From a virus: 24,915 nt of DNA. The notes under the pieces were generated by a model. It saw nothing but the letters and a program-made list of their open reading frames with translations. It was not told where the DNA came from and made no database searches. The position numbers and the translations under genes were made by a program. Every line of letters begins with the position of its first letter. Within the stretch, counting starts at the first letter, position 1. Below, one piece after another: positions 13,525 through 21,102 of the stretch. The DNA is taken from IMG/VR virus record IMGVR_UViG_3300030098_000847, positions 1 through 24,915 of that record. One strand, 5' to 3'.

Positions 13525-13971
13525 TCATCCAAGAAACATTAATCGTTCATCGTTTCTCCTTTTTATTAATCCTTTTAAGCGTTTACCTCCAGCCCATATC
13601 CACCTTGGAAATTCATCTGCTGCACCAATGTAGTCTCCTCTGTTGATTTTACGTCTTAGTGTGCTACTCTGTAAAGAACCACTACCTAGATTAAATACGA
13701 ATGAACATAATGCGCTGTACTGTCCATCCTCTAGTGGTACTTTTATTAGTCGTAATACTGCAACTTGTGATTTTTTTACATCTCTTCTTAATAAATAGTC
13801 TGCCTGATCTTTATTTATATCAGGATGATCTTCTGTTACTCTTTTATTATCCAAACCCCATATGGCCCCATACCCGATAGTCCAATGTTGTGCTGGACAC
13901 AGATATGGGGAGGAAGAATATCCCTCGTAAAACTTAATCAAGTCAAGACCTTCTTCAGTTATACGCCTCAT
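13525..13971 (-). CDS. Endolysin, GH24 lysozyme (T4/P22/P1 type)
   Basis: The 148-residue protein is one GH24 lysozyme domain. The catalytic triad pattern E-x8-D/C-x5-T is present as E16, C25 and T31 in YEGYSSSPYLCPAQHWTIGYG, with Cys in the Asp position, as in the P1 type. SALCSFVFNLGSGSL (residues 86-100) and WIWAGGKRLKGLIKRR (near 124-139) are the usual C-terminal landmarks. It cleaves the bond between N-acetylmuramic acid and N-acetylglucosamine. There is no signal peptide or signal anchor at the N-terminus, so it would need a holin, for which the protein at 15317 is a candidate. ATG 13971 has an AAGGAAAC site. The family call is firm. Confidence 0.88.
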   Translation of the reverse strand: MRRITEEGLDLIKFYEGYSSSPYLCPAQHWTIGYGAIWGLDNKRVTEDHPDINKDQADYLLRRDVKKSQVAVLRLIKVPLEDGQYSALCSFVFNLGSGSLQSSTLRRKINRGDYIGAADEFPRWIWAGGKRLKGLIKRRNDERLMFLG

Positions 13972-13980
13972 GGTGTTTCC

Positions 13981-14658
13981 TTATTTATCCGAATAAAGAT
14001 TATTAAATGTTACTGATGGATCTAAGTAAGATTGATGTGATTCTGCTGAATGTGTCCACTGAGAAGGAGTAAAATCTGGCACTCCATCTCCTGTTCTCCA
14101 CAACGCAGGACTAGTAGCTCTAACTCTATTATTAGGAAGTGCGACTATATTTCCTGTCCAGTTTTCTGCATCCAATAACTGAATAACATGAGACTGTTTA
14201 TGCTGTGCAGGATCATCAGCAATAGCATGGTCAGTATAATCTACTGTAAATAAATATTTACCAGTATAAAACTCACCATCTATTTTACATAACCAAGGAG
14301 AGGAACTAACCCTGTCCATCACAATAACACTATGATGTCTAGATTCGCAATCCCAAGGCTGACATATGTGGTCTTCCATAGGATCAGGCCAACTCTCTAT
14401 TGGTGTGTCTGCTACTAGAGCTTGTATTGGCATTCTAGCCCACATAGCTCCACCGTGAATATTTTCGTCAGGACCATCTTCCCTGTCGATTTCACAACCT
14501 GTAAATACAACCTGAAAACTTAAAGACCTGTCAGGTATTGTATTTACTGCAAAAGCCATAGCGTGAAGGAAGTCACCGTGATAATTTTGATGGTTACAAG
14601 TGAACTCCCTTCGCACCCAACAACTAAAGTGTGGAATGTTACTTATTAAATAAGACAT
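13981..14658 (-). CDS. Conserved hypothetical protein, 225 aa
   Basis: The 225-residue product is unusually rich in His, Trp and Cys for a phage protein, with HFSCWVRREFTCNHQNYHGD near the start and DHICQPWDCESRHH near the middle. Regular alternation suggests a beta-rich fold, and residues such as LSFQVVFTGCEIDRED look like core strands. Metal or substrate binding by the His and Cys residues is possible. It ends 9 nt before the lysozyme gene and begins 2 nt after the repeat-protein gene, so it belongs to the same operon. I have a sense of having met related proteins in cyanophages and pelagiphages as conserved hypotheticals, but I cannot name a function. A capsid decoration or tail role is as likely as a lysis role. 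Confidence 0.65.
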   Translation of the reverse strand: MSYLISNIPHFSCWVRREFTCNHQNYHGDFLHAMAFAVNTIPDRSLSFQVVFTGCEIDREDGPDENIHGGAMWARMPIQALVADTPIESWPDPMEDHICQPWDCESRHHSVIVMDRVSSSPWLCKIDGEFYTGKYLFTVDYTDHAIADDPAQHKQSHVIQLLDAENWTGNIVALPNNRVRATSPALWRTGDGVPDFTPSQWTHSAESHQSYLDPSVTFNNLYSDK

Positions 14659-14660
14659 TA

Positions 14661-14849
14661 TTAACGTCTAGCTGTCCCACCTCGTCTAGCCATCATTGGC
14701 TTTTTCTTTCTCATAGGTGAAGCTCCACCTTTTGCATACATTTTGGTTTTCTTTCTAGAACCCATAGCCCCACCTTTTGCATACATTTTAGTCTTTTTTC
14801 TCGCAGCGGTAGCTCCACCTTTTGCGTACATTTTAGTCTTCTTCCTCAT
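14661..14849 (-). CDS. Tandem-repeat basic mini-protein (KKTKMYAKGGA repeats), 62 aa
   Basis: After an AAGGAGAG site and an ATGA overlap with the upstream gene, this ORF encodes four copies of a 15-residue unit. Three are nearly identical (RKKTKMYAKGGA plus three variable residues) and the last is degenerate (RKKKPMMARRGGTARR). The protein is almost entirely repeat, very basic, with Met-Tyr and Gly-Gly at fixed places in each unit. I know the KMYAKGG or KMMAKGG theme from marine phages but no function. Possible roles are binding nucleic acid or the virion interior, or serving as a scaffold; each is speculation. Confidence 0.68.
   Translation of the reverse strand: MRKKTKMYAKGGATAARKKTKMYAKGGAMGSRKKTKMYAKGGASPMRKKKPMMARRGGTARR
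14667..14846 (-). repeat. 45-bp in-frame tandem repeat, four units
   Basis: Four head-to-tail units of 45 bp lie at 14802-14846, 14757-14801, 14712-14756 and 14667-14711 (reading the - strand). The first three share the sequence coding for RKKTKMYAKGGA with few silent changes; the fourth has diverged. In-frame length and divergence at the 3' end suggest growth by duplication under protein-level selection. Confidence 0.8.
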
Positions 14850-15038: not shown

Positions 15039-15317
15039 TTACCATTTTACTTTATTAGCCCAATATGCAGCTGACATTTTACCCTTGGCAATATTCTTAC
15101 CATGTCTAGCCTTAAAAGATTTTCTTCTGGCTGTTTGTCTTGCCGACTCACCTTTCTTAGGTTTACCAGCAGTTTTAACACCTTGTTGCCCAAAACGTAT
15201 TAGTTTTACTTTAGTACCTTCCTTGGCTAGTACGGCATGGGATTTCTTTGGATGATTAGGTGTTCTCTTTGGTTTGTTGTATCCAGAAAATGTTTCTTTA
15301 CCTTTTTTTATAGTCAT
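15039..15317 (-). CDS. Basic conserved phage protein (SAAYWANKVKW end), 92 aa
   Basis: The 92-residue product has a conserved block, GYNKPKRTPNHPKKSHAVLA then KVKLIRFGQQGVKTAGKPK, and ends in the tidy motif KGKMSAAYWANKVKW. The whole is strongly basic with a more regular beta-like middle (TKVKLIRFGQQG), suggesting a small folded domain with a nucleic acid surface. The pattern is common in marine phages and large viruses as a conserved unknown family; I will not name the family without a search. ATG 15317 is joined to the holin-like gene by TAATG. It is the best conserved of the basic mini-proteins here and a good query for linking the window to relatives. Confidence 0.7.
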   Translation of the reverse strand: MTIKKGKETFSGYNKPKRTPNHPKKSHAVLAKEGTKVKLIRFGQQGVKTAGKPKKGESARQTARRKSFKARHGKNIAKGKMSAAYWANKVKW

Positions 15318-15778
15318 TACGAACTACTCCTAGATCTTTGTAAGGCCCGACTTCCAAACCAGAATGAGATAATAGCAGCAAATATTCCTTGCGTTTCTTC
15401 ATCCCATAATGTTTGTATAGCTATCTCCCACACAATACCGTCTGTATATATTAGACCGTATAGTGCAGTTCCTTTTATTACTGCAAATAATGTAAAGAAT
15501 AGATATGTTATAACTGGCCTGACACTTGCTCTTAGTCCTGCCATAAACCCTGTAGACTTCATAGACCGATCATGTTTATATAAAGCCTTGCTCTCACTTA
15601 TGTCAGCTTCTATATTAAGTGCTTCTAGCTTTTGTGTATGTGCTAGTTTAGATGCCTCTATCTGACGATCCATCATTGCCAATTCGTGTTTTCTGTCTTG
15701 CCAATCTGAGAACATATCAAATGCTTTAGGTAGTGCAGAACCTGCAAAACCTATTAATGATCCTAGTATTGTAATCAT
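15317..15778 (-). CDS. Holin-like membrane protein (3-TM GTA holin family)
   Basis: The 153-residue protein has a hydrophobic N-terminus (ILGSLIGFAGSALPKAF), a charged coiled-coil segment (about 24-75) and two further hydrophobic segments, VRPVITYLFFTLFAVIKGTA (about 86-106) and GIFAAIISFWFGSRAL (about 131-146). The SVRP start of the second helix and the FWFGSRAL end match the three-helix holins of phages and gene transfer agents. It would form pores in the inner membrane so that the lysozyme at 13525 reaches the wall. The membrane topology fits; the long soluble loop is larger than in classical holins. The start overlaps the MscS-like gene by 4 nt (ATGA). Experimental lysis activity is unknown. 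Confidence 0.65.
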   Translation of the reverse strand: MITILGSLIGFAGSALPKAFDMFSDWQDRKHELAMMDRQIEASKLAHTQKLEALNIEADISESKALYKHDRSMKSTGFMAGLRASVRPVITYLFFTLFAVIKGTALYGLIYTDGIVWEIAIQTLWDEETQGIFAAIISFWFGSRALQRSRSSS

Positions 15779-16098
15779 TCTTTAGGCTCCTCTATTATCT
15801 TTTCTATTTTTAAAAATTTAATTCTTTCATTAGGAACGTATCGCCACACATGACCTCTACCGTTAATTATGGAAAATACACTTTCATATATTCCTACTTT
15901 AACTAGTACGGCTCGATCTCCATCTACGATACATTTGTCACCTTCATTAAAACTAGCATCAAATTTAAATCTAACACCAGTAACAAAGTTTGTTATTAGA
16001 TCTTTAATAAAGAAACCAAGCCCTAGACTAAGAAAGATAGCGATGAGGGGTACTAGGGCATTGGTTAGGTCCAGTGATATGCTGTCCAGTGATTGCAT
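15775..16098 (-). CDS. Minimal MscS-like pore protein (TM3 plus beta domain), 107 aa
   Basis: The 107-residue protein aligns by eye with the pore part of the mechanosensitive channel MscS. A hydrophobic helix (11-31, ALVPLIAIFLSLGLGFFIK) runs into LITNFVTGV, which matches LSNLAAGV at the end of E. coli TM3. The beta domain follows: FNEGDKCIVDG (compare FRAGEYVDLGG), VKVGIYES and the WRYVPNERI end (compare IVIPNGKI). The two N-terminal helices and the large cytoplasmic vestibule of MscS are missing. It lies between the putative ejection-protein gene (1-nt TAATG overlap) and the holin-like gene (4-nt ATGA overlap). A pore, holin partner or antiholin role would fit. A channel function in such a short form is not known to me; this is a fold-level assignment. 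Confidence 0.65.
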   Translation of the reverse strand: MQSLDSISLDLTNALVPLIAIFLSLGLGFFIKDLITNFVTGVRFKFDASFNEGDKCIVDGDRAVLVKVGIYESVFSIINGRGHVWRYVPNERIKFLKIEKIIEEPKE

Positions 16099-19000
16099 TA
16101 TTTATTGTACTCCTCTGGTATTTTTTTATATATTTCTATTAATTCTTTTAATAGTGCAGCTTCTTGCTTATTTACATCTAATACAGTTTCTACATCTTCA
16201 CCTATTAAACCTACTGCTTGAGCAGACTTGAGTGCTTTTTGAAACTGATACGGTTTTGCTTTTGATACTTGCTTTATAATACCTAAATGATGAATTGAAG
16301 GAAATTTCTCACTTAATCTTCTTTTTAAATTACCTATTTCTTTCTTTAAATATATTGCTTTAAACTCATCATTAAAATCTCTATAAGCAGCATTTGTAGA
16401 TACAAATTCATTAAGGTTTCTTTCTATTAGACTAGATCCAATAAGTTCAAATGCATCGTCATATTCTGGTATTCCTGATGGTCTAAACAGTTTCCAATCT
16501 ACTAAACCTAATCTAGATATTTCTCTTTCTACTTTGCCCATTCGTTGCTTTTTAATAATACCAGTAAACTGTTTATACAATGGTGCTACATTTCTTAACG
16601 GAGTGGGTCTATATATTTTATAACGTGACCTTGGAACTTGAACTCCACCATCGTTAGATACCTTATAGTTTTCGTTTTCTATTATTTGTAGCTGACCATT
16701 TGGTAACTTTCGTATTCCATGATCTTGATAAGTTAATAAAGAATTACCCATAGGAAGATCTTTTAATATAACATCTACAAAATTTTCAAAAAAACCTTGA
16801 CTACTTTGAGCTTTACGCAATATTCTTATATTTTCATCGAAAGTATTTGTTGTAGGATCGTATAGCAACTCATCAGCTATATCTTTAATTAATTTTAAAG
16901 GTATTATAAGTGCAGCAACTATAGATCCAGCTGCCCTAGCAAGAGCTTGTTTAAATTTAACCATTGACATTGGATCTTCATCAAACAAGAAATCTAAAGA
17001 ATGTGCCTCTAGTTGCCTCATTATACCTGATCTAGAAGACGGTCCACCTAGAGCTTTGATAAAGTCTAACCTAGTTTTTTCTTTTAAATCAAATCTACCT
17101 TCCCCACCTGGAATTGTAAATTCTACTCCAAAAATATTTTGTTTTTCATCTACTGTTTGTTTTATAACTTCTGCTATAAAAGAGTAAGGTGCAAAAGGAT
17201 ACCAAGTAGAAATATCTAGTTGTCCAGGAGTTTTATCTTCATAAAGATTCCATTCAGTACCTGCATAATCAGAGTTTCTAGCAGCGTAGGCAGTTGTTAA
17301 TAACGCTGTACCAGATAACCCTTGAGATATTCTTTTTACAGCCATTTCTTTTTGAAAAGGTGTAGCATTTACGCTAAATAAATCTTTATACTTTCCAGCA
17401 GTAATAGGATTTAATAAAGATAGAGGGCTATGCTCATACATAAATTTGAAACTATTTATTAAGAATTTTGGAAATGGAATTGCCATAGATCCAACTACAG
17501 GAATATTTGACATTGAATATAAAACGTCTGAAAATTTTCTTCCTATTGGACCTTCACTTATGTTTCTTGTTTGGTAGTTGTACTCTAATGCCCATTGTAT
17601 ACCATCATTTATAAAACGATCATCAATCTCTTGTATTCTACCTTCTCTAACCATTTTAAAAATGTCTAGACCTTCTCTTGCCATTGACTGTTTTAAACCA
17701 ACCATAAAAGAAGCAGACTTCATGTATCTGTCTTGAGCAGAGTTAAGTATGTTAGCTTTCATTAACATATTTTCAAGAGGATCAAATGCTACACCTATGC
17801 CTCTATTTATAATACCTTTTTTATTACCTTCCATTTTAGATATAACATTTTGAACCTGCGCTGCTTCATAAACACCTTCAGGTCCATCTAGTAGTTTTCT
17901 TATTTCAGGCTTTTGACTTGCAAGAAAGTCTACAAACAATCTATTTTCTTGTGCATTAAACATACTATTTACATGATCAAATGCATCTTTTAATTCTACA
18001 GGTCTATGTCTAGGACCACCACCAATCATAGGTAGAGCCATTGTTAATAAATTATCTATTGTGCGAGTGGTCATGTCTACTGGTATTCTTATCATTCCAC
18101 CCATGACATTTCTTATAGTCGTTGCAGGTTGAGATATCATACCTAGTCTGACCATTCTGTTCCATTGACTACCTCTTTCATAGAGCGCACCGTCTGGACC
18201 TTTTCCCCAATGATCTAATCTAGCTCTTTCTGCTAACATAGAAGAGTAATATGCTTCAGTAGCTGGACTTAATTCTTGACTATTTTTACCTAAAACATCT
18301 GAGGCATATTTAAGTGGGTTCTTTGCAGCAGCTTCAAGATCTCCCTCACTATATAATTTACCTGTAACATCTTTAAAGTTTTTTTGTAATCCTTGATTAA
18401 ATTGTTCTATCCATAGTTTACTTACTTTTTTCTTTACTTGACTAGCTTGACCTAATACTTTAGCAGCTTGTGACGTAGTTCCTAGATAACTACCCTGCAT
18501 AAAAGATATAAACTCTATGTTGCTTACACCATTAGCATCTAATATTCTTACAAAGTCATCACTGTTAAAACCATTAGGTACATTTTCTATAGCATCAGAT
18601 ACTTGTTGAGATATTCTTTTGTTTGGATTATACATCATTTTAGACTCTTGTAGTATATCTACAAAAGCATCGTTTATTCTTTTCATTGAATTAGTGGTTA
18701 ATTTAAAGTCTACAAGATTAGGTAAATCTTTATCATTTAAATCAAAATACTTTTTCATCTGTTCTTGAAGATCTTTAAAACCTTCTTCTGCTAATTCCTT
18801 ATTAAAAAGTTCAGAGTCTCTTATAATTTCTTTTTGTATCTTTTTTTGTATTGCATTATCAAAAGGATCTAATACTTTTACCTCAGAGGTTTTTACTGTT
18901 TTTTGTATTGGATCTCCTGTTTTAAGATCAAAACCCATATTTAAAGTATAAGTATCATCGTCATTCACCTTAAATACATAGCCAATATTTTTATCTGCCT

Positions 19001-19811
19001 TAGTTTTACCTATATTAACAAAGCTACCTTCTGTAATATTACCGTTTAAAAATGCTTGTCCTGCTGGTGTATTTTCTAAATATATTCTTTTACCTTCTTC
19101 TATTACTTTTATGTAATCTTCAGATTTAAATAATTTTTTAACACCTCTACCTACGGCTGCAAAACCTGCTCCAGGAATTATTGCAGAGGCTGCTGCTGTT
19201 GCTCCTCGTACAGGATCATAGCTAAGTTCTTCATCATCCTCAAACGCATCACCATATCTATAATTTATAGATCTCTCTGCACCCTGAAGAGCAGCATCAC
19301 CTAAAAAAGCTCCGAATGTATCTGTTGCTACTCCTGCTAGAGTAGAGTTTAAACTAGCTTTAGCACCTACATCTAAGGCTGATTTTAATCCTGCTCTTAC
19401 TCCACCATACATGGCTGCTTTCGTTGCAAACCCAGCAGCACCACCAGTAACAACACTTAAATACGTTGAAGGTGCAGTTACAGCAGACATAAGATAATCA
19501 ACAAATGCTTTTGTATTACTTGCTGTATCATCTTCATAGAACATAGGCAATGCTCTATAGACTTCATATACTTCCTTTAGTTCTACTTTTTGATTATCAC
19601 TTATCTCGTTAGAAGAAACAGTACTCCATAATTTATACGCATCCATTTCATTAGAATCTATTTCTCTAAACTTTTCATAAAAAGCATCTAATAACTCTTC
19701 ATTGTTATTATAATCAAATTCACCAAAAGTATGACCTAAAACATTAGATGCTTTATTTAAAAATTCAGGGTTTCTTAATAATCCAGCATATGTCATTTCG
19801 TCTATCTGCAT
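16098..19811 (-). CDS. Putative internal virion/ejection protein, 1237 aa
   Basis: At 1237 residues this is the largest gene here, the size of the large internal virion proteins that podoviruses inject with their DNA (compare T7 gp16). I use ATG 19811, three nt below the stop of the upstream gene, with a G7 run that can act as a ribosome binding site; the frame stays open only 51 nt further up. The sequence shows Gly/Ala-rich hydrophobic stretches (about 106-178 and 203-223; GGAAGFATKAAMYGGVRAG, ASAIIPGAGFAAVGRG) and a later IPVVGSMAIPFPKFLINSF segment, fitting membrane insertion. There is no visible lytic transglycosylase motif, so wall digestion may come from elsewhere. Family not recognised; the role is inferred from size, hydrophobicity and location. 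It ends next to the MscS-like gene. Confidence 0.6.
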   Translation of the reverse strand: MQIDEMTYAGLLRNPEFLNKASNVLGHTFGEFDYNNNEELLDAFYEKFREIDSNEMDAYKLWSTVSSNEISDNQKVELKEVYEVYRALPMFYEDDTASNTKAFVDYLMSAVTAPSTYLSVVTGGAAGFATKAAMYGGVRAGLKSALDVGAKASLNSTLAGVATDTFGAFLGDAALQGAERSINYRYGDAFEDDEELSYDPVRGATAAASAIIPGAGFAAVGRGVKKLFKSEDYIKVIEEGKRIYLENTPAGQAFLNGNITEGSFVNIGKTKADKNIGYVFKVNDDDTYTLNMGFDLKTGDPIQKTVKTSEVKVLDPFDNAIQKKIQKEIIRDSELFNKELAEEGFKDLQEQMKKYFDLNDKDLPNLVDFKLTTNSMKRINDAFVDILQESKMMYNPNKRISQQVSDAIENVPNGFNSDDFVRILDANGVSNIEFISFMQGSYLGTTSQAAKVLGQASQVKKKVSKLWIEQFNQGLQKNFKDVTGKLYSEGDLEAAAKNPLKYASDVLGKNSQELSPATEAYYSSMLAERARLDHWGKGPDGALYERGSQWNRMVRLGMISQPATTIRNVMGGMIRIPVDMTTRTIDNLLTMALPMIGGGPRHRPVELKDAFDHVNSMFNAQENRLFVDFLASQKPEIRKLLDGPEGVYEAAQVQNVISKMEGNKKGIINRGIGVAFDPLENMLMKANILNSAQDRYMKSASFMVGLKQSMAREGLDIFKMVREGRIQEIDDRFINDGIQWALEYNYQTRNISEGPIGRKFSDVLYSMSNIPVVGSMAIPFPKFLINSFKFMYEHSPLSLLNPITAGKYKDLFSVNATPFQKEMAVKRISQGLSGTALLTTAYAARNSDYAGTEWNLYEDKTPGQLDISTWYPFAPYSFIAEVIKQTVDEKQNIFGVEFTIPGGEGRFDLKEKTRLDFIKALGGPSSRSGIMRQLEAHSLDFLFDEDPMSMVKFKQALARAAGSIVAALIIPLKLIKDIADELLYDPTTNTFDENIRILRKAQSSQGFFENFVDVILKDLPMGNSLLTYQDHGIRKLPNGQLQIIENENYKVSNDGGVQVPRSRYKIYRPTPLRNVAPLYKQFTGIIKKQRMGKVEREISRLGLVDWKLFRPSGIPEYDDAFELIGSSLIERNLNEFVSTNAAYRDFNDEFKAIYLKKEIGNLKRRLSEKFPSIHHLGIIKQVSKAKPYQFQKALKSAQAVGLIGEDVETVLDVNKQEAALLKELIEIYKKIPEEYNK

Positions 19812-19812
19812 A

Positions 19813-21102
19813 TTATTGTTCCCCCCCAACCATTTCAAAAATATGCATCTCAGCGTTAGCATCGTACCTAGCTCTAACTATTCCTTCATTAGAACGAAAA
19901 CTGTAAAATCCATCAGGATCTGCTGTCATACGTCCAAAGGCTTTTGTAAGTTCATCCTTGTTTTTTACACCAGTCATATTAAAAAATTGATCTGCTGTAA
20001 TTGGTTTACCTTTAAGTAATGTTTTAGATCCTGTAATTTCTGTTGCATCAACATTTCCAGCAAAAATATTTTTTGTATTTTTAAATTCAGGACTATTTAA
20101 TGTTGCGCTTTTAGCATTGTTAAATGCTCTAAAGGCACTAGTCGCACTTCCAGTAAGAAGTTGATTTTCAGATTCAGCTATTACTCTAGCAGAATAAACT
20201 TGAAAGTCTCTCATAACTCTTGCAGCTACTGCTTGTTTATTTTTATTTACTTTTTTAAGTAAGTTTTGATCAACAACAATAGTATTATCTTCTCTAACTT
20301 GAATAGCAGAATTAGGAACTTCTAAGTCTGTTGCAAATTTTATTTGAGTTTTTAACTCTTGCACTAACAACTGATTAATATTAGGAACAGTATCTTCTAA
20401 CAGTTTAAATTTATCTAGTTTATTTTTTTGTCTTCTAAGAAGTCTAAGAGTTGTAGCGTCAGGTTTAGGTCTTTGTGCTGGATCTCCATCTTCTGCTACA
20501 TCTTTTCTATAGTTCATTATCTCATCATATACAGCTTGACCCTGCTCTACATCTTCAAACGTATTTATAAACTTATTTTTTACTGTTTCAGACACACTAT
20601 ATCTTTTTGGAAGCCTACCTAAAAATGTTCCTAGTATAGTAGATCCAACCCTAGAACCCATAGTTTCAGGTGTCTGTCCTTCTTGTCGTATAGTCGTTTC
20701 TGTATCTTCTGCAAATGCTTGTGCCATTTGTTGACTTTGTGGTAAAGTACTAGTTGTAGATGTCATCTCTTGAGTTGTCTCTTGTGCATCACTTGCATCT
20801 TTTTCTAAACCTTCTAGTAATTTTATAGCTTGATCAGGATTCTTATTACTCATATTATATGCAGCAAAAGCTTCTACGTCTGTGGGTCTACGTCCAAGTT
20901 TTAATTCAGCACCAACTATAAGAGGCTCAAGAACTTGCTTTCTGTTCTGTAGTATCTCATCAGATTGTTGTTTTCTTTTACTTGCTTGTTCTATAACTTT
21001 TAATCCACGTTCAACATCTTTATCAAATTTCTCAAAGGCTTCTTCTCTAAGATCCTCTCTGCGTTGCATTGCAGCACTAAACGCTCTTTTAAAAAATGAC
21101 AT
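19813..21102 (-). CDS. Putative internal virion protein, 429 aa
   Basis: The 429-residue protein starts with a coiled-coil-like charged stretch (about 1-60, RREDLREEAFEKFDKDVERG), followed by a low-complexity Thr/Gln/Ser linker (about 105-135), and a longer mixed C-terminal part. It is directly upstream of the large ejection-protein candidate, with only a 1-nt gap between its stop and the next start, and just 1 nt downstream of the acidic-tail gene. This gene order is like the gp14-gp15-gp16 block of T7-like phages. The final codons end in GGG GGG at a 7-base G run. I do not recognise a family. The virion role is inferred from neighbourhood and composition. Confidence 0.55.
   Translation of the reverse strand: MSFFKRAFSAAMQRREDLREEAFEKFDKDVERGLKVIEQASKRKQQSDEILQNRKQVLEPLIVGAELKLGRRPTDVEAFAAYNMSNKNPDQAIKLLEGLEKDASDAQETTQEMTSTTSTLPQSQQMAQAFAEDTETTIRQEGQTPETMGSRVGSTILGTFLGRLPKRYSVSETVKNKFINTFEDVEQGQAVYDEIMNYRKDVAEDGDPAQRPKPDATTLRLLRRQKNKLDKFKLLEDTVPNINQLLVQELKTQIKFATDLEVPNSAIQVREDNTIVVDQNLLKKVNKNKQAVAARVMRDFQVYSARVIAESENQLLTGSATSAFRAFNNAKSATLNSPEFKNTKNIFAGNVDATEITGSKTLLKGKPITADQFFNMTGVKNKDELTKAFGRMTADPDGFYSFRSNEGIVRARYDANAEMHIFEMVGGEQ

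Follow-up and report, generated by a model that had tools for sequence, protein, structure and literature searches.

The stretch of DNA analysed here, termed the window, is a 24,915-base IMG/VR virus record (IMGVR_UViG_3300030098_000847) of an uncultured ocean phage. Its DNA polymerase contains the CxxCxGxG insertion, which is typical for HMO-2011-type podoviruses (PMC9038755), and is 37-42% identical to the polymerases of CRP-3, CRP-212, HMO-2011 and HTVC033P over more than 95% of the length. The subject of this study is a small gene on the minus strand, called mini-MscS in the following, which is located among late genes together with these features:

13525..13971, minus strand: endolysin of the phage lysozyme family (PF00959, E 1.3e-40; phrog_7, endolysin, E 1.5e-53)
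15317..15778, minus strand: gene for a putative holin-like membrane protein of 153 aa (phrog_6637, a family without function label; PHROG match 7.6e-37)
15775..16098, minus strand: mini-MscS gene, 107 aa, one transmembrane (TM) helix and an MscS-type beta-domain (open reading frame, relatives, MscS profile match, purifying selection)
15820..15954, minus strand: beta-domain of mini-MscS, residues 49-93 (family conservation, hhalign register, strands in a low-confidence AF2 model)
16006..16062, minus strand: predicted TM helix of mini-MscS, residues 13-31, aligned to MscS TM3a (hydropathy, charge count in five homologues, hhalign register)
16098..19862, minus strand: large late protein of 1254 aa (open reading frame, overlapping the mini-MscS start by 1 nt)

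Mini-MscS is a genuine gene and is subject to purifying selection, with dN/dS values of 0.03-0.09 in those pairs that are free of saturation. A preliminary description of this DNA had proposed a 107-residue product at 15775-16098 that is linked to both neighbours by overlaps, and the coordinates of the open reading frames confirm this on the minus strand: the start of the gene shares one nucleotide (16098) with the upstream 1254-aa frame, and its end shares four (ATGA, 15775-15778) with the downstream 153-aa frame. Direct reading of the DNA revealed that the starts of both mini-MscS and the 153-aa gene are preceded, at a distance of 8-11 nt, by a ribosome site of the GAGGAG type.

The two neighbours can be characterized to a different extent. 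Distant homologues of the 153-aa protein adjoin lysozyme genes in AcaML1 and ctXG6705, and the protein is probably holin-like. The 1254-aa protein has no convincing family match in the Pfam and PHROG comparison, and its size and place are the only grounds on which it might possibly be regarded as an ejection or internal virion protein.

The mini-MscS protein contains one strong hydrophobic stretch. As no lysine or arginine precedes it (net charge -2) and three are found within the next 15 residues, the helix is predicted to be oriented N-out/C-in, like TM3 of MscS. Only about 12 residues lie ahead of the helix, leaving no counterpart of TM1 and TM2, and the protein ends about 14 residues past the beta-domain, so that the C-terminal alpha/beta vestibule of MscS is absent as well. 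The earlier proposal that TM3 and the beta domain were kept while the first two helices and the vestibule were lost is thus supported by these lengths and by the profile match described below. In T4-like members of the family the C-terminus is extended by up to about 50 residues that look helical.

Profile comparisons strongly suggest that the helix and the beta-domain of mini-MscS are distantly homologous to TM3 and the beta-domain of MscS. The hhalign alignment of 60 family proteins with 38 bacterial MscS TM3-beta sequences yielded a probability of 96.3% and a score of 53.3 over 73 columns; an earlier round with 14 phage sequences had yielded 95%. Forty column shuffles of the profile reached scores of at most 20.8 and probabilities of at most 8%. 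YajC, a control of the same topology, remained at the shuffle level against the mini-MscS family (0.7%, score 14.2), and MscS against YajC gave 9.7%. Since shuffling of the helix only or of the tail only lowered the score, both parts contribute to the match. Residue i of the phage protein corresponds to residue i+80 of E. coli MscS up to about residue 75 and to i+77 thereafter (hhalign), and the motif pairs that had attracted attention originally, i.e., NFVTGV/NLAAGV, EGDKCIVDG/AGEYVDLGG and YVPNERI/VIPNGKI, indeed share one register in the profile alignment.

Database searches were less uniform. With a diverse phage profile, 23 of 23 matches among all PDB sequences (E<=10) belonged to the MscS family, with a best E of 0.021; a single homologue retrieved only MscS-family proteins as well (16 of 16), every E being above 0.1, and a profile built from T4-like members only retrieved them in three of eight cases, with chance matches among the rest. 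The one recurrent Pfam match was PF00924, which was found for seven of 14 T4-like members with a best E of 0.0016, the members shown scoring 12-17 bits and thus below the gathering score of 20.2 bits. The window protein itself had no Pfam match up to E=10, and its only two NCBIfam matches, MscS (E 0.046) and MscK (E 0.1), are weak. The profile search that had been suggested in the preliminary description was therefore unsuccessful in Pfam and weak in NCBIfam for the window protein alone, while the family as a whole matches MscS clearly. A VIA-align comparison returned mixed rows, none above Z 4.7. Two AF2 models are poor: the first (pLDDT 60) had MscS-superfamily chains at Foldseek ranks 1-44, and no MscS fold match was found for the second, worse one (pLDDT 58).

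Eight residues of the beta-domain are invariant in the family (F50, G53, D54, D59, G69, W85, R86 and N90). Four of these, F50, G53, D54 and N90, are at MscS consensus positions, as are the mostly conserved G41, T73 and P89. In the helix, L25 and F29 align to L105 and L109 of the MscS pore gate and are mostly hydrophobic across the family, although position 25 is not invariant in the wide family. The Gly/Ala packing of MscS is partly retained, as small residues are found at positions 24 and 28, but not at the knobs.

The search of IMG/VR initially revealed 24 relatives, then 25, and relaxed patterns together with wider profiles increased this to two overlapping sets, one of 401 or more contigs and the other of 419 or more. 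Carriers include HMO-2011-type podoviruses, in which a branch of 113 aa was also found, T4-like myoviruses and some contigs above 200 kb. Each of 172 loci examined has one member, some contigs contributing two loci. In a tblastn search of 50,697 phage records the family had no match beyond chance level; five identical matches (E 0.7, 26%) inside a larger frame of Manatee Spring phages were rejected as chance. Likewise, there was no confident match in the PHROGs, where weak matches (E 0.015 or more) were judged to be due to chance. No copy of the gene was detected in the 45-47 kb of sequence covered for the cultured HMO-2011-type phages CRP-3, HMO-2011, CRP-212 and HTVC033P, and a scan of bacterial genome contigs yielded no relatives.

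In the window and its close relatives the gene of the large late protein is followed by mini-MscS, then by the gene of the 153-aa membrane protein and, further on, by the endolysin gene. A second podovirus branch (L196, L200) is organized differently, in that the large late gene directly abuts the 153-aa gene and mini-MscS follows the endolysin, behind a gene for a 51-53-aa protein with a single TM helix. In a third branch mini-MscS lies ahead of the genes for a 72-aa protein with two TM helices and for another lysozyme, which differs from that of the window. Thus, in HMO-2011-type relatives the gene occupies one of several places, all of them within the late/lysis region. The link to the putative ejection gene, which had been part of the original proposal, turned out to be incidental, and it was dropped as a functional clue because relatives carry mini-MscS elsewhere.

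The context was also counted in 35 clusters formed at 80% identity; it should be noted that the sample consists of the loci with the best scores and is not random. At least one lysis-like neighbour (holin-like, endolysin or spanin) accompanies mini-MscS in 18 clusters. A multi-TM holin-like gene is located within 700 bp in 17 of the 35, and within 3 kb an endolysin is found in ten and a spanin in seven. The enrichment of small-TM neighbours (13/34 versus 37/310 other genes of the same loci) is significant (Fisher p 2.6e-4), with the restriction that the clusters are not fully independent. However, the link to lysis is not universal, because mini-MscS is next to TerS/TerL in ten clusters, one of which has a 3-TM neighbour in addition, and eight clusters exhibit neither context.

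The most complete cassettes are those of T4-like phages. In L316, L297 and L306 the order is GH108 endolysin (PF05838, 8e-30), Rz (phrog_739, 1.4e-9), Rz1-like lipoprotein, 1-TM protein, mini-MscS and 2-TM protein, and several T4-like groups share this arrangement with either a GH108 or a GH19 endolysin. In the largest T4-like cluster mini-MscS overlaps the same 2-TM gene and adjoins baseplate-like genes, which were named by eye. The placement in a lysis cassette that had been described for the window therefore recurs among lysis genes, those of unrelated phages included (the 18 of 35 clusters), and we consider the connection of mini-MscS with lysis moderately well supported. The holin-like neighbours carry no holin annotation; the designation is derived from their size, TM hairpin and place. 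Common ancestry of the C-terminal part of the 153-aa protein, the T4-like 2-TM protein and the 72-aa protein was considered but is not supported, as the hhalign scores were at shuffle level.

Two further families were observed in the T4-like loci. The 2-TM family phrog_10198 (no function label; WRI.PR...VSVVVGAGAAWFGLY), which may be an unannotated holin, abuts mini-MscS in L317, L319, L352 and other loci. In several T4-like lysis cassettes mini-MscS is preceded by a single-TM protein of 92-95 aa (L306, 4715-4996; L316, 5124-5408), which looks helical at its C-terminus and has no family match.

Taken together, we give an even chance to the interpretation that mini-MscS is a phage-adopted minimal MscS core that forms a membrane ring or small pore and acts as an accessory of holin-driven lysis. 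An MscS core would have been reduced to one pore-type helix (N-out, C-in) and the beta-domain, with loss of TM1, TM2 and the vestibule. The protein would probably be expressed together with the late genes and, by analogy with MscS and microsporidian MscS2, would most likely assemble as a ring in the inner membrane. The ring or pore might then set or buffer turgor, membrane potential or holin assembly for the opening of the holin. A role as a lysis accessory is favoured because relatives recur beside different holin-like proteins, endolysins and spanins. The more specific possibility that the minimal core is a regulator of lysis, in which a tension- or turgor-responsive ring cues holin opening, appears rather unlikely; if true, the infected cell's mechanical state would influence when it is lysed.

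One alternative would be an osmotic safety valve, i.e., a late phage channel of the MscS type that vents solutes and prevents bursting of the cell before the virions are ready, with the adjacency to lysis genes being incidental. Homology to the MscS core is in line with this function, as are the ten clusters near terminase genes, most of which are away from recognised lysis genes, and the miniature TcMscS retains mechanosensitive activity (PMC12334622). However, the tension-sensing TM1 and TM2 of MscS are absent, TcMscS still has two membrane helices, and the placement beside lysis genes recurs across unrelated phages. A valve is unlikely, but together with the scaffold considered next it is one of the two main rivals of the lysis accessory.

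It is similarly doubtful that mini-MscS is not a channel at all but a membrane-anchored ring of beta-domains that serves as a scaffold, for example an antiholin or a platform for holin/spanin assembly. The single TM helix and the only partly kept Gly/Ala packing would fit, and in the T4-like relatives the helical-looking C-terminal extension would bind partners, a version that seems just as doubtful; yet L25 and F29, aligned with the gate residues L105 and L109, are mostly hydrophobic throughout the family. That mini-MscS is a YajC-like or other single-TM protein with a beta-domain, resembling MscS by convergence, is very improbable: one member matches YajC at E 0.61 and another RseC at 0.45, but the profile comparison gave YajC 0.7% versus 96.3% for MscS and all 23 PDB matches were to the MscS family. 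YajC was rejected as the family of mini-MscS for this reason, and RseC and various beta-proteins because they matched at chance level only.

The possibility that mini-MscS is cargo for osmoregulation, which is kept for host fitness and takes no part in lysis or the release of virions, is likewise highly improbable. In its favour, viral mechanosensitive channel genes (MscL) increase with salinity (PMC13288924) and the gene may move between genomes; against it, mini-MscS overlaps tightly with late genes and recurrently has lysis neighbours. Movement is suggested by comparison of the window with G003 (L158-L160), a 54 kb phage record: mini-MscS is 90% identical, as compared with 67% for DNA polymerase, 45% for helicase and, over a part only, 24% for the large late protein. 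With the replication proteins so much less similar, mini-MscS would be either strongly constrained or recently exchanged. In G003 mini-MscS lies beside the gene of an unrelated membrane protein of 150 aa, and a search with six known endolysins as queries revealed none resembling them.

Returning to the lysis accessory, several known systems are comparable in part. Pinholins, e.g., S68 of phage 21, are small phage membrane proteins that are thought to form heptameric narrow pores in lysis. They have neither a beta-domain nor homology to MscS, and their partners are SAR endolysins, unlike the endolysin of the window, which lacks an evident N-terminal anchor. E. coli MscS and mini-MscS have in common the TM3/beta-domain register, hydrophobic gate positions and the motifs GD and PN, as found in the consensus of the family, but MscS comprises 286 aa with TM1-TM2 and vestibule, and the phage protein is below the Pfam cut-off. 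The same reduction is seen in MscS2 of the microsporidian Nematocida displodere, which also consists of a TM3-like helix and an MscS beta-domain only, forms heptamers in vitro and includes some members of 73-95 aa; it is, however, from a eukaryotic parasite, lacks a lysis context and has no assigned function (PMC11262690). TcMscS of Trypanosoma cruzi, a stretch-activated channel of 478 pS, is also a minimal MscS fold that has lost TM1 and part of the C-terminal vestibule (PMC12334622), but it has two membrane-embedded helices, and mini-MscS has one. MscS- and MscL-like genes are known from large eukaryotic viruses (PMC6163359) and viral MscL genes from estuaries (PMC13288924). A phage protein, gp51 of the sea-ice myophage PANV1, matched MscS 6RLD in HHpred (99.7%), with one uncertain TM helix; it was mentioned in passing in 2022 without lysis context and is compared here by its description only (PMC9239159).

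The initial assertion that no such system had been described thus requires modification, as minimal MscS proteins are known and a phage protein has been mentioned; what stands is the lysis association. Neither the mini-MscS family nor this association was found in the open-access papers searched, and the recurrent association appears to be undescribed in that literature. A recognisable channel core, reduced to a single helix and a single domain, has spread over several unrelated groups of marine phages, and it often sits inside their lysis cassette. To our knowledge, the determinants of lysis time in marine phages are largely unknown. If mini-MscS is a pore or tension sensor, it would tie lysis timing to turgor and the family would offer a natural means of finding the smallest part of MscS that still makes a channel. 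Phages may thus have put a pressure valve to use in lysis.

Three other observations were made in the vicinity of the lysis genes. A 225-aa gene of the window (13981-14658, minus strand; phrog_3704, labelled ferredoxin) is 82-95% identical in relatives including G003 and behaves like exchanged cargo, because helicase and DNA polymerase of G003 are only 45-67% identical. Next to it, a small open reading frame (14661-14849, minus strand) is made up of near-exact RKKTKMYAKGGA repeats, and similar KKGTKMYAKGGA repeats occur in the relative L009. Finally, L025 (6783-7109), L009 (8173-8499) and L022 (5377-5703) encode near their lysis genes a 108-aa protein that, by eye only, looks like an iron-sulphur carrier of the IscA/HesB type with a C-terminal CGCGESF.
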